DNA of 64,000 nt, from NCBI GenBank assembly GCA_963678705.1, contig OY783215.1, positions 310,001 through 374,000 on the forward strand, read 5' to 3'. Source of the DNA: Panorpa germanica. Taxonomy: Eukaryota > Arthropoda > Insecta > Mecoptera > Panorpidae. Shown in pieces: positions 30,101 through 44,780 of this stretch. A model generated the notes under the pieces. It was given only the letters and a program-made list of their open reading frames with translations. It was not told where the DNA came from and did not search any database. The stretch's first letter is position 1. The number at the start of each line of letters is the position of its first letter. A program made the translations under genes and the position numbers.

Positions 30101-31606
30101 ATGGATACGAATGATATGGATATCGTGTTAAGTGTAGCGTTAGACAGTGGCTTCGATATAAGTGTTCTTAGAGGAATAGTAGAAAATACGTGCATGCCTA
30201 AATATTTAGGTGAGGTAGGTATTGAAGAAAATGCAAAAACGGAAAACTTTTTCGAGAAAACAATACCAAGATTTACAAACGATATGTTTATTGAACATTT
30301 TCGAATGTCTCGAGAAAGTTTTGAAGTAAGTACAAAAAAAACAAATATATTTCAAGTAAAACACATTTGCTAGTGGTATTATAAACATAACCAATTAACC
30401 TAACCTATAAAAATACCTAATAAACCTTTTTTTTTAGATATTAACCAATATAATTGGAAATACAATAAGTGATAACAAACCTTATGAGGAAGTACCTTTG
30501 CCCAAGAAGATATTATTTGCAGTATGGGTGCTTGCAAAACAAGAAAGTTTCTTATCTACAGGAGACAGATTTGGATTTTCCAAAAGCACTGGGCATGGGA
30601 TTTTTGCATATATTATTAAAATACTCTCAAATCTCATGCCACAATTCATTAAATGGCCTGAATATAAAAATTATGAAACCATTTCTAAAGTATGTACAAA
30701 TCTGTCATACTTTGTTAAAAACACATAAATATGTTCCTCAACTTATCGTAAAATATTTTAACAGATTTTTCAAACAAAATCTTATGGGTTTCCTGGCGTA
30801 GTAGGAGCCATCGATGGGTGCCATATTCCCTGCAAGCAACCTATTGGTAACCCTACAGATTTTTATAATAGAAAAGGGTTTCATTCCATCATCCTTCAAG
30901 GTAATGATTGTAACTAATTAATTAACACAGTATACAGAGTTATCAGTTTATAACAATACTATTTCAAATATTTTTAATACAACACTAAGTTATCAACATA
31001 AACAATTAATTACTCTAATTTGCACAGTTAAGACATCAACTAACTCAAACTCTTTCACAATATATGAGAAATAATAACATTAAAATGTTTTCAGGAATAT
31101 GTGACCACAGAATGAAATTTACGGATGTATTTATTGGTATGCCTGGACGGATGCATGACGCCAGAGTTTTCCGGAAAAGCCCAATATTCAACCACCTTGA
31201 CATGTTATTGCCACAAAGTTATCATATTATAGGTGATACAGCGTATCCACTGATGCAACAAGTTCTTACGCCTTTTAGAGATAATGGACATTTGAGCAGA
31301 AAACAAGGTGCATACAATAAAAAACTGAGCAGCATAAGATCTACAATTGAGAGGGCTTTTGGACAACTGAAAGGAAAATTTAGGAGACTAAAATATCTTG
31401 ACATTTCAAATTTTGATTTGGGTCAAGAGATGATTTCTGCTGCATGCATGCTACATAATTTCATTATTGAGCATAATGAAACTGGTAGTGAAGAAGTAAT
31501 AGACGAAATTGAAAATATGGATGTACCAGATCACAATGAAAGCAATGTGGACGATAGAAATAATGAGGCTATTAGAAAAAGAAATAATATTAGTGATATG
31601 TTATGA
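30101..31606 (+). CDS. PIF/Harbinger DDE transposase (HARBI1-like), four exons
   Basis: Cuts and rejoins the element's ends. Exons are 30101-30325, 30438-30689, 30765-30900 and 31095-31606. All introns (112, 75 and 194 bp) are GT-AG, and phases join to 374 codons, close to human HARBI1 (349 aa). The start MDTNDMDIV was chosen over an upstream in-frame ATG (30071), which adds only a low-complexity MLSIVIIIIK. Residues ~95-130 look helix-turn-helix-like (FGFSKSTGHGIFAYIIKIL). The DDE nuclease domain shows D176 in GFPGVVGAIDGCHI, D252 in IIGDTAYPL and E290 in STIERAFGQLKGKFRRLK; NRKGFHSI and GMPGRMHDARVF are also family hallmarks. The C-terminus is acidic, then basic (IRKRNNISDML). AATAAA follows at 31668. 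All three catalytic residues are present and no disruption is seen. It is confined to the element, so it is not the domesticated host gene. Confidence 0.92.
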
Positions 31607-32023: not shown

Positions 32024-33008
32024 TTAGATTCCAGGATTATTCCTTTGTCTGATTAATTCTTTTAATAATTCGTTTCTTTCCTGCTGAATCTGGTTAGATA
32101 CTTTTATATCTTCCGAAATTACTTCCAAAATTTTGATGTGCTTTTTTTGAAGTTCTAGTTGTTCTTCTATAATTCTTTTACCACCTTTTTGTTTTATTCC
32201 CGATGATCCTGATGTAGATGGTAAAGTGGGAATTGGTTCTGGTGTCGGGGAATTGGAAAACAAATGGTTTGTGGATGTACTCGTCGATGGCCCCATTATA
32301 TCGAAAGTAGCTTGAGTAATTGGTAATTTAAATGACGATATTGTACGTCCAATGTTGACCGTACAATCAGTTTCAAAAATATTTTCGAACATGTCAAAAT
32401 GTTCCCATTTTACGCTTCCTTTACCTGTGGTGGATTTATTATCTTTTATAGTGCTGTACGTTTTTTTTAAATTTCTAAATTTTCGGTCCAGGATATCACA
32501 GGTGATGTTGTTATACCCTTCTTCTTCAAAAATTTTGCCGATTGTTGCCCACAGATTTTTCTTTTTTAGTTTTGGGTCTCTGAACTTAGCCTTCATACCC
32601 ATATAAGAACTTACTAATAATTTAGTTTTTTTTAAATCCCACGTAAAATTTTCTGTTTCTGCAAATAAAAATAATTCTTAGTCGAAAAGTATTAAAACTA
32701 ATATTCGCTTTGAAATATATCGCAATCTAACCTTGTGGACTGATTTCCGCGTCTGAAGTAGCCTGTGAAGTACTTCCTTCATCCTCAACATCGGGATTGG
32801 ATATTTCCAGGGAATTTAAATTTACTTCGAAATACCCTTTGAAATATTCTGGATCTATTTGAAGCAGTGCCATTAGTAATTTAAAAAATGTATTCATATC
32901 ATATTATTGCTACTTACCATTATGCAATTTTACGTGCACATCGTAAGTATCTGCAATAATATATTCCACACCATCCTTTATATAATTTGCAGAAAATATG
33001 TCACTCAT
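32024..33008 (-). CDS. Harbinger Myb/SANT-like DNA-binding protein, three exons
   Basis: Partner protein of the transposase. In studied Harbinger systems this protein binds the transposase, carries it into the nucleus and contacts the element ends. Exons on - are 33008-32918, 32854-32732 and 32658-32024, with GT-AG introns of 63 and 73 bp in consistent phase, giving 282 codons. Residues ~1-71 are a leader starting MSDIFSANYIKDGVEY and becoming acidic and Ser/Thr-rich (VEDEGSTSQATSDAE). Residues ~76-165 are a Myb/SANT-like (trihelix) domain: FTWDLKKTKLLVSSY, then LWATIGKIFEEEGYN, then LDRKFRNLKKTYSTIKDN and KWEHFDMF. A Pro/Ser/Thr-rich linker leads to a basic KQKGGKR and a charged C-terminal helix (EEQLELQKKHIKILEVI), probably a coiled coil. 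The upstream exons give the domain its first helix, which supports the model. No break is seen. Confidence 0.88.
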
Positions 33009-40658: not shown

Positions 40659-40667
40659 ATGAAGAGG
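40659..40667 (+). repeat. 9-bp target duplication, left copy
   Basis: ATGAAGAGG, identical to 44772-44780 on the other side of the Foldback-like element. Confidence 0.85.
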
Positions 40668-41090
40668 ACGTCGGTGAAGTTAGCAGCGCGGTCTAGCAGC
40701 GCGATGGAAACTAGTGGTGTGAATAACATAGCTGTCTACAGTCTCATAGAGAATATTCGAAATTGCTATTATACAGTTCAAATGCAAACTTAACCGTCAT
40801 TATTGTTACTATTGACATAAATACAAAATGTAATAATAGAAAATAAACATTTGCAATCATATATTAGCACTAAGGAATAATAAACGTCTATACAAAAATA
40901 GAATTATTTTAACGAATATGCAAACATTAGAATAATTAACTTCTCATCTTTATTTTTATAAAATACTTAACACGTTAAGAGTGTTTACTTTAAATAACTA
41001 TATTTTAAATTCAAAACAATATAATAAATTCGGAATTACAGGTATTTGAATAGTGTTGTATTTCATACACTCAGGTAAATATGCTGATAT

Positions 41091-41785
41091 AAAAACTGAA
41101 AAAAAAGGAATTATACATCTTTATTTTTTAATAAAATTAAACGTGTGTATAGTATACACTATACATAACAATAATTTAAATTCAAAACCATGGAAAAATA
41201 AATTAGATTTGGAGGTACAGGTCTTTGAAAAGTGTTATATTTCATACGCACAGATATACTTGGTGATACAAAGCGCAAGTAATCAAAGATAGCAGCGCGA
41301 AGATAAACTCAAAAAAAAAGGAATTATACATATTTATTTTTTAATGAAATTAAACGTGTGTATAGTATACACTATACATAACAATAATTTAAATTCAAAA
41401 CCATGGGAAAATAAGTTAGATTCAGAGATACAGGTCTTTGAAAAGTGTTATATTTCATACGCACAGATATACATGGTGATATAAAAACTCAAAAAAAAGG
41501 AATTATACATATTTATTTTTTAATAAAATTAAACGTGTGTATAGTATACACTATACATAACAATAATTTAAATTCAAAACCATGGGAAAATAAGTTAGAT
41601 TCGGAGATACAGGTCTTTGAAAAGTGTTATATTTCATACGCACAGACATACATGGTGATATAAAAACTCAAAAAAAAGGAATTATACATATTTATTTTTT
41701 AATAAAATTAAACGTGTGTATAGTATACACTATACATAACAATAATTTAAATTCAAAACCATGGGAAAATAAGTTAGATTCGGAG
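41091..41785 (+). repeat. tandem array, + orientation, four monomers
   Basis: Monomers are marked by GTATAGTATACACTATAC at 41148, 41360, 41539 and 41718, with spacings of 212, 179 and 179 bp. The 212-bp type carries an extra ~33 bp containing TAGCAGCGCG (41290-41299). Copies are nearly identical, suggesting recent amplification or gene conversion. Confidence 0.85.
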
Positions 41786-41815
41786 AGTTGATTTTCTTTG
41801 AGAGTTAGATTTTTG

Positions 41816-44340
41816 AGTTTTTATATCACCATGTATATCTGTGCGTATGAAATATAACACTTTTCAAAGACCTGTATCTCTGAATCTAACTTATTTTCCC
41901 ATGGTTTTGAATTTAAATTATTGTTATGTATAGTGTATACTATACACACGTTTAATTTTATTAAAAAATAAATATGTATAATTCCTTTTTTTTGAGTTTA
42001 TCTTCGCGCTGCTATCTTTGATTACTTGCGCTTTATATCACCATGTATATCTGTGCGTATGAAATATAACACTTTTCAAAGACCTGTACCTCCGAATCTA
42101 ATTTATTTTCTCCTGGTTTTGAATTTAAATTATTGTTATGTATAGTGTATACTATACACACGTTTAATTTCATTAAAAAATAAATATGTATAATTCCTTT
42201 TTTTTGAGTTTATCTTCGCGCTGCTATCTTTGATTACTTGCGCTTTGTATCACCAAGTATATCTGTGCGTATGAAATATAACACTTTTCAAAGACCTGTA
42301 CCTCCAAATCTAATTTATTTTTCCATGGTTTTGAATTTAAATTATTGTTATGTATAGTGTATACTATACACACGTTTAATTTTATTAAAAAATAAAGATG
42401 TATAATTCCTTTTTTTTGAGTTTTTATATCACCATGTATATCTGTGCGTATGAAATATAACACTTTTCAAAGACCTGTATCTCCGAATCTAACTTATTTT
42501 CCCATGGTTTTGAATTTAAATTATTGTTATGTATAGTGTATACTATACACACGTTTAATTTTATTAAAAAATAAATATGTATAATTCCTTTTTTTTGAGT
42601 TTTTATATCACCATGTATGTCTGTGCGTATGAAATATAACACTTTTCAAAGACCTGTATCTCCGAATCTACCTTATTTTCCCATGGTTTTGAATTTAAAT
42701 TATTGTTATGTATAGTGTATACTATACACACGTTTAATTTTATTAAAAAATAAATATGTATAATTCCTTTTTTTTTGAGTTTTTATATCACCATGTATAT
42801 CTGTGCGTATGAAATATAACACTTTTCAAAGACCTGTATCTCTGAATCTAACTTATTTTCCCATGGTTTTGAATTTAAATTATTGTTATGTATAGTGTAT
42901 ACTATACACACGTTTAATTTTATTAAAAAATAAATATGTATAATTCCTTTTTTTTGAGTTTATCTTCGCGCTGCTATCTTTGATTACTTGCGCTTTATAT
43001 CACCATGTATATCTGTGCGTATGAAATATAACACTTTTCAAAGACCTGTACCTCCGAATCTAATTTATTTTCTCCTGGTTTTGAATTTAAATTATTGTTA
43101 TGTATAGTGTATACTATACACACGTTTAATTTCATTAAAAAATAAATATGTATAATTCCTTTTTTTTGAGTTTATCTTCGCGCTGCTATCTTTGATTACT
43201 TGCGCTTTGTATCACCAAGTATATCTGTGCGTATGAAATATAACATTTTTCAAAGACCTGTACCTCCAAATCTAATTTATTTTTCCATGGTTTTGAATTT
43301 AAATTATTGTTATGTATAGTGTATACTATACACACGTTTAATTTTATTAAAAAATAAAGATGTATAATTCCTTTTTTTTGAGTTTTTATATCACCATGTA
43401 TATCTGTGCGTATGAAATATAACACTTTTCAAAGACCTGTATCTCCGAATCTAACTTATTTTCCCATGGTTTTGAATTTAAATTATTGTTATGTATAGTG
43501 TATACTATACACACGTTTAATTTTATTAAAAAATAAATATGTATAATTCCTTTTTTTTGAGTTTTTATATCACCATGTATGTCTGTGCGTATGAAATATA
43601 ACACTTTTCAAAGACCTGTATCTCCGAATCTAACTTATTTTCCCATGGTTTTGAATTTAAATTATTGTTATGTATAGTGTATACTATACACACGTTTAAT
43701 TTTATTAAAAAATAAATATGTATAATTCCTTTTTTTTGAGTTTTTATATCACCATGTATATCTGTGCGTATGAAATATAACACTTTTCAAAGACCTGTAT
43801 CTCTGAATCTAACTTATTTTCCCATGGTTTTGAATTTAAATTATTGTTATGTATAGTGTATACTATACACACGTTTAATTTTATTAAAAAATAAATATGT
43901 ATAATTCCTTTTTTTTGAGTTTATCTTCGCGCTGCTATCTTTGATTACTTGCGCTTTATATCACCATGTATATCTGTGCGTATGAAATATAACACTTTTC
44001 AAAGACCTGTACCTCCGAATCTAATTTATTTTCTCCTGGTTTTGAATTTAAATTATTGTTATGTATAGTGTATACTATACACACGTTTAATTTCATTAAA
44101 AAATAAATATGTATAATTCCTTTTTTTTGAGTTTATCTTCGCGCTGCTATCTTTGATTACTTGCGCTTTATATCACCATGTATATCTGTGCGTATGAAAT
44201 ATAACACTTTTCAAAGACCTGTACCTCCAAATCTAATTTATTTTTCCATGGTTTTGAATTTAAATTATTGTTATGTATAGTGTATACTATACACACGTTT
44301 AATTTTATTAAAAAATAAAGATGTATAATTCCTTTTTTTT
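41816..44340 (-). repeat. tandem array, - orientation, thirteen monomers with higher-order repeat
   Basis: The marker GTATAGTGTATACTATAC occurs at 41928, 42140, 42352, 42531, 42710, 42890, 43102, 43314, 43493, 43672, 43851, 44063 and 44275. Spacings run 212, 212, 179, 179, 180 and then repeat, giving a five-monomer higher-order unit of about 961 bp present about two and a half times. The long monomers carry CGCGCTGCTA (42005, 42217, 42967, 43179, 43928 and 44140). Confidence 0.85.
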
Positions 44341-44771
44341 CAGTTTTTATATCAGCATATTTACCTGAGTGTATGAAATACAACACTATTCAAATACCTG
44401 TAATTCCGAATTTATTATATTGTTTTGAATTTAAAATATAGTTATTTAAAGTAAACACTCTTAACGTGTTAAGTATTTTATAAAAATAAAGATGAGAAGT
44501 TACTTATTCTAATGTTTGCATATTCGTTAAAATAATTCTATTTTTGTATAGACGTTTATTATTCCTTAGTGCTAATATATGATTGCAAATGTTTATTTTC
44601 TATTATTACATTTTGTATTTATGTCAATAGTAACAATAATGACGGTTAAGTTTGCATTTGAACTGTATAATAGCAATTTCGAATATTCTCTATGAGACTG
44701 TAGACAGCTATGTTATTCACACCACTAGTTTCCATCGCGCTGCTAGACCGCGCTGCGAACTTCACCGACGT

Positions 44772-44780
44772 ATGAAGAGG
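44772..44780 (+). repeat. 9-bp target duplication, right copy
   Basis: ATGAAGAGG, directly repeated from 40659-40667. Confidence 0.85.

Follow-up and report, generated by a model that had tools for sequence, protein, structure and literature searches.

The present study suggests that a 4,104-bp element on chromosome 12 of Panorpa germanica is, with high probability, a foldback transposon of the cut-and-paste type that is non-autonomous and relies for its movement, in trans, on a Ulp1-bearing protein encoded by its longer siblings. The element lies in a stretch of 64,000 nucleotides, referred to here as the window, within a genome of 464,208,970 bases in 249 contigs. The published assembly report, in its summary figures, gives 464.2 Mb in 254 scaffolds with 20 autosomes plus X, built on 52x HiFi reads (PMC11464959). 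An earlier note on this DNA had described a 4.1-kb structure of inverted and tandem repeats with a perfect 9-bp target duplication, and its coordinates proved exact to the base. The features of the element are as follows.

40659 to 40667, plus strand: left copy of the target-site duplication, ATGAAGAGG, directly adjoining 40668
44772 to 44780, plus strand: right copy of the target-site duplication, ATGAAGAGG, directly adjoining 44771
40668 to 44771, strand not applicable: probable non-autonomous foldback-type transposon, 4,104 bp, without the core
40668 to 41318, plus strand: left inverted arm, 651 nt
44121 to 44771, minus strand: right inverted arm, 651 nt, pairing with the left arm at 99% complementarity, with the TTCGCAGC variant as its end
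40945 to 41786, minus strand: left tandem array of 5 units, spaced 179 or 213 bp, the outermost degenerate
41787 to 41809, strand not applicable: centre, the junction of both arrays
41810 to 44508, plus strand: right tandem array of 14 units (179 and 212 bp), the outermost degenerate
40681 to 40703, plus strand: TAGCAGCGCG motif in two copies, which lie 14 and 27 bp in from the left end and are candidate binding sites
44736 to 44745, minus strand: TAGCAGCGCG motif near the right end, at the mirror position
41290 (plus strand) and 42005, 42217, 42967, 43179, 43928 and 44140 (minus strand): the seven remaining TAGCAGCGCG motifs

The duplicated 9-mer ATGAAGAGG occurs three times in the window, and a count of three or more was reached in 0 of 100 shuffles. 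Between the two copies that adjoin the element, units of 179 and 212 bp form two opposed arrays flanked by outer domains, the left array counting 5 units and the right one 14. The 20-bp terminus ACGTCGGTGAAGTTAGCAGC was found in the window at the two element ends only, with 0 and 1 mismatch, and it did not appear in the shuffled window sequence. The ends differ from each other, the left being TTAGCAGC and the right TTCGCAGC; the same mixture of ends is present at C1:782220, C11:1126950, and C14:9213485. The outer 278 bp of the left arm are common to the siblings at 99 to 100% identity (40 matches scored). A higher-order period of about 961 bp runs through the right array, and the 300-nt stretches starting at 41810, 42772, and 43733 match one another at 100% (rounded). 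The motif TAGCAGCGCG has 10 copies in the window, every one of them inside the element, against an expected 0.01; two copies fall in the outermost 36 bp on the left and one in the mirrored position on the right, the rest lying in the arrays at the 212-bp units. Rfam and tRNA scans of the window gave no matches.

The element belongs to a family whose termini could be traced throughout the genome. A search with a 22-base terminus pattern found 89 termini (67 exact and 22 with one mismatch), whereas the reversed pattern, used as a control, found 0. When each plus end was joined to the next minus end of its contig, 70 ends could be combined into 35 pairs. Of the remainder, 17 were left unpaired, and 2 were extra ends in the C9 cluster, which was scored as one pair. 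The paired elements range from 761 bp (C6:18986560) to 26,951 bp (C1:20186964). The earlier note had staked its reading on 9-bp duplications at the other copies. Exact 9-bp duplications flank 27 of the 35 pairs, against a chance expectation of about 0.0005, and two further pairs, the C21 and C4 elements, carry exact 8-bp duplications. The six pairs that have none are C8:959843, C7:4651760, C5:8128959, the C9 cluster, C11:1126950, and C6:24142563. Since the flanks of C8:959843 mirror each other in a palindrome, a target duplication is unreadable at that element. The 9-bp duplication of C8:2527882, TATATATAT, sits in a TA repeat and is weaker evidence. Taken together, the 27 exact 9-bp duplications are 72% A+T and have no clear consensus.

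A related empty site was also recovered. The joined flanks of eight elements were run together against the genome, and 40 of 2,185 candidates were scored; all 40 are copies of the repeat that hosts the C21 element, the one element of the eight to which the empty-site evidence applies, and they cross the junction uninterrupted at 97 to 99% identity. Four of these copies, aligned across the junction, are gap-free with a single AATTTTTC, and three of the four show an identity of 230/232. Because the related copies are empty at this junction, the C21 element must have inserted itself into a copy of a different repeat, duplicating 8 bp. The duplications and this empty site demonstrate transposition of the family, and the earlier claim that the structure is a transposed unit rather than a rearranged satellite is borne out by the siblings' own duplications and by the related empty site.

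Sixteen elements were analysed over their full length. Opposed arrays are present in all of them, so the Foldback design proposed in the earlier note holds as architecture, and unit number varies among the copies as well as between both arrays of a single element. The ends within an element diverge by 0.36% on average versus 0.92% between elements, the C179 element being an outlier with its own ends 2.7% apart. Given how small this divergence is, the comparison of ends indicates that the family is either young or has had its ends homogenised by conversion.

Furthermore, one common core is kept in part by 12 of the 16 elements, while the other four, the window element included, are without it. 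Core length starts at about 0.8 kb (C3 and C4) and rises from there, and core identity is mostly 97 to 99.9%, with some stretches of 91 to 96% in C6a and C10. Shared ends and a deletion series are established for the family. At the centre of the window element, no core remnant was detected beyond a 12-nt match (E 0.096).

The earlier note had suggested a search for a longer copy encoding a Mutator-type transposase. A longer copy with a candidate transposase does exist: an intact ORF of 1,111 codons, with its first ATG at codon 20, lies inside C8:959843-975775 and is the sole intact ORF found in its subfamily. The Mutator-type part of that expectation did not find support, as the protein gave no Pfam transposase match, and hhalign, run on a shallow alignment, detected no resemblance to the one PF10551 gene of the genome (probability 0.2%). 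A broken copy of the ORF, 96% identical, lies in C179:256405-270386, an element with a 9-bp duplication; it has 6 stops across residues 1-899, with the remainder in an overlapping stretch. Between the paired ends of C1:782220-798575, protein residues 1-190 are followed by 993-1111, and protein matches also lie between the paired ends of C6:24142563-24154027 and C7:4651760-4671438. Thus, five elements have protein matches inside their paired ends, and a sixth, C1:20186964, has a truncated start. Searching the genome with the protein gave at least 45 matches, diverged relatives included, with a lowest identity of 42%; these match counts are lower bounds, 41 of 307 candidates having been scored.

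Several of the loci concerned show further features. A palindrome of about 26 kb at C8:954.9-980.8 kb surrounds C8:959843-975775, with the ORF in its unpaired middle. The mirror symmetry of the flanks covers 4.99 kb per side at 99.8%, and it is absent from 1-kb windows that end at distances of 10, 30, and 100 kb; this palindrome could be a genuine inverted duplication or could stem from an error in assembly. In C1:20186964-20213914, the right array holds a 13.8-kb insert with 325-bp inverted ends, whose ORFs look Maverick/Polinton-like by eye; one of these ORFs gave a match to rve, the integrase core domain (E 2.6e-11). A LINE-like insert in C7:6898368-6911566 carries two ORFs, of 486 and 1,248 codons; the larger encodes an endonuclease domain together with reverse transcriptase and RNase H domains. 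Among the diverged relatives, a second subfamily of the candidate transposase, 45% identical overall and open across 1,170 codons, was observed at C8:3733339-3736260; two close copies of it lie at C1:7402117 and C147:139553.

The 1,111-residue protein is probably the transposase of the family. At its C-terminal end, a Pfam Peptidase_C48 match covers residues 911-1054 (E 6e-10); the same domain was matched in 4 of 6 aligned members, two being truncated before the end, and a profile search matched SENP1 (E 1.4e-12). His936, Asp953, Gln1000, and Cys1016 are at what we take to be the positions of the Ulp1 catalytic residues. Upstream, D443, D517, C565-x-x-H568, and E745 are invariant in all six alignment rows. 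In a second alignment of eight rows (the same six relatives plus two), D517, C565, H568, and E745 do not vary in any of the eight, and two rows stop short of D443. In transposases of the Mutator-like (MULE) superfamily, the second D and the E of the DDE triad have a CxxH between them, and the order D, D, CxxH, E is presumably that of Mutator-like and related transposases. Compared with its two nearest long open relatives, the protein has dN/dS values of 0.29 (81% identity) and 0.24 (87% identity), and values across seven comparisons range from 0.24 to 0.49, with synonymous change near saturation in one; by this codon-level measure, the protein is under constraint. AlphaFold gave no usable structure (mean pLDDT 31 for the full protein with 6 rows and 36 for residues 200-860 with 8 rows). 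A search of IMG/VR viral contigs for relatives of the protein gave 422 pattern matches, of which 0 were confirmed.

These observations are best explained by the following course of events. Long copies with the same ends encode the protein of about 1,100 residues, bearing the D, D, CxxH, E set and the C-terminal Ulp1-like SUMO-protease domain. This protein probably binds the shared ends and perhaps also the TAGCAGCGCG repeated in the arrays. It would then cut the element out and join it to a staggered target cut, leaving duplications of 9 bp or, in some cases, 8 bp. Core-less derivatives such as the window element, which would move in trans, would arise as the core is lost and the number of units changes. 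The motif TAGCAGCGCG may be a transposase-binding site, by analogy with Galileo, because the tandem repeats in the Galileo arms contain such sites, according to the published summary of that element (PMC3688188). A Mutator/Rehavkus descent of the protein and a role of its protease in transposition are both conceivable. A bolder version, which we regard as possible though rather doubtful, would make the family a separate DNA transposon lineage in which the foldback architecture is served by one large divergent DDE transposase-SUMO protease fusion, with the arms acting as many-site loading platforms and the protease stripping SUMO off host factors at the transposition complex.

It is unlikely that the Ulp1-bearing protein is a passenger in a family moved by a transposase encoded elsewhere, e.g., by the PF10551 MULE gene at C12:4779183. 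That gene is the sole PF10551 match found in the genome and was confirmed on the protein, and the foldback protein itself is without a Pfam transposase domain (none was matched in any of the six members, even with the threshold relaxed to E 10) and neither it nor its six members match PF10551. However, the C12:4779183 gene is not close to any of the 89 termini, while the Ulp1-bearing protein sits inside elements bearing the family termini and has kept its D, D, CxxH, and E. The PF10551 match itself (C12:4779183-4779455) lies in an open frame of 342 codons with upstream exons that look gustatory receptor-like by eye only, and the gene is possibly a domesticated transposase.

Movement by the family's own Ulp1-bearing protein, the reading preferred here, can be set beside other foldback systems. 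Like the Panorpa elements, Drosophila Foldback (FB, FB-NOF) has long inverted ends built from tandem repeats, and it makes 9-bp duplications; FB-NOF is said, in the title of a 2013 paper by Badal, to be non-autonomous. Rehavkus is the group listed as MULE-NOF in Dfam. When compared by description, Rehavkus-1_TC of Tribolium castaneum comes nearest among the described elements; it is given as 9.5 kb long with 164-bp tandem units in its inverted termini (PMC10218199). The group as a whole is summarised as having a 9-bp duplication, one ORF, a minisatellite, and a PHD finger (PMC6446971). The 9-bp duplication and the terminal minisatellite are both present in the Panorpa family. In contrast, the PHD finger of Rehavkus was not matched in any of the six members of the Panorpa protein at E up to 10, the Ulp1 domain of the Panorpa protein is not part of that summary description of Rehavkus, and the Panorpa arms and arrays far exceed the 26 to 400 bp listed there. 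Since the PHD finger was not found, we did not file the Panorpa family under Rehavkus, although it may work like Rehavkus. We therefore call the Panorpa elements a presumably new family of the foldback kind, with a probable enzyme of unsettled descent, set apart from Rehavkus by the descriptions.

Tetris of Drosophila virilis, as outlined in its report, has units of about 220 bp inside its inverted ends, a variable middle, and 8-10 bp duplications; where its authors state that they found no transposase copy (PMC4079207), the Panorpa family has a candidate. Tm1 of root-knot nematodes (Phantom subclass) is described as having foldback-like ends with 8-10 bp duplications, mostly 9, in 45 of 53 complete elements, but its 496-residue transposase combines FLYWCH and MULE domains (PMC3169594), neither of which was found in the Panorpa protein. 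As neither domain was matched in the six members, membership in Phantom was rejected. Ulp1 domains have been reported in Mutator elements of hydra, lancelet, and plants, and the Panorpa family resembles these and Ginger1 in that a DNA transposon encodes a Ulp1 protease domain; foldback arms are not part of the description given there (PMC2836005). Ginger1 differs further in having an integrase-type enzyme, such as was not recognised among the six members of the Panorpa protein. In a 2026 MULE survey of 4,268 arthropod genomes, complete transposases measure 313-1,136 residues, and the words Mecoptera, Panorpa, Foldback, and Ulp1 do not occur in its main text (PMC13359780).

Very improbable is a P-type foldback element like Galileo of Drosophila, with the foldback form reached by convergence. 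The ends of Galileo are likewise long, inverted, and internally repeated (PMC3688188, PMC3573991), and its unit number changes independently at each end (PMC3573991). However, Galileo is described as having 7-bp duplications (PMC3573991), in contrast to the 9 or 8 bp observed here, and a P-type transposase with a THAP domain, which was not found in the foldback protein or its six members. No P-type transposase was recognised between the family ends among the element ORFs listed, and P-type membership was rejected, as no THAP domain was matched and the duplications are not 7 bp.

Least credible of all is a rearranged satellite or an assembly artefact mimicking a transposon: the window element is almost wholly made of repeats, C8:959843 lies within a palindrome, and the unit 29-mer (up to 2 mismatches) is unbalanced across the genome at 1,358 forward versus 497 reverse copies, so that a free array may exist, but the exact 9-bp duplications, far in excess of the chance expectation, and the empty sites speak against it, and for the family it was ruled out by the duplications of the siblings and the empty site. 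Within the 16 elements, the unit 29-mer is nearly balanced (210 forward versus 183 reverse). About 860 forward unit copies are unaccounted for and may belong to a free satellite array of the kind reported for Tetris; two further genome searches for such an array did not locate the excess forward copies. The cluster at C9:10544926-10582601 was rejected as a giant array, with 0 of 4 samples matching the element.

Foldback elements rearrange chromosomes and can give rise to satellite DNA, yet the enzyme responsible for their movement is often missing, as Tetris, in its authors' account, exemplifies (PMC4079207). Here, the ends and a deletion series come together with an empty site and a probable, constrained transposase in one apparently young family. 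With these in one family, what moves foldbacks, and what purpose their repeated arms serve, become directly testable.

Two minor observations concern the genome and the window. The insect telomere repeat looks rare in this genome, with exact (TTAGG)5 occurring twice in 464 Mb versus once for the reversed control, in a search that may skip simple repeats. In the window, a DDE_Tnp_4 transposase fragment (31019-31606, plus strand, E 1.2e-27) lies beside a Myb/SANT-like ORF (32024-32677, minus strand, E 2.3e-12), a pair that we take to be typical of Harbinger transposons.
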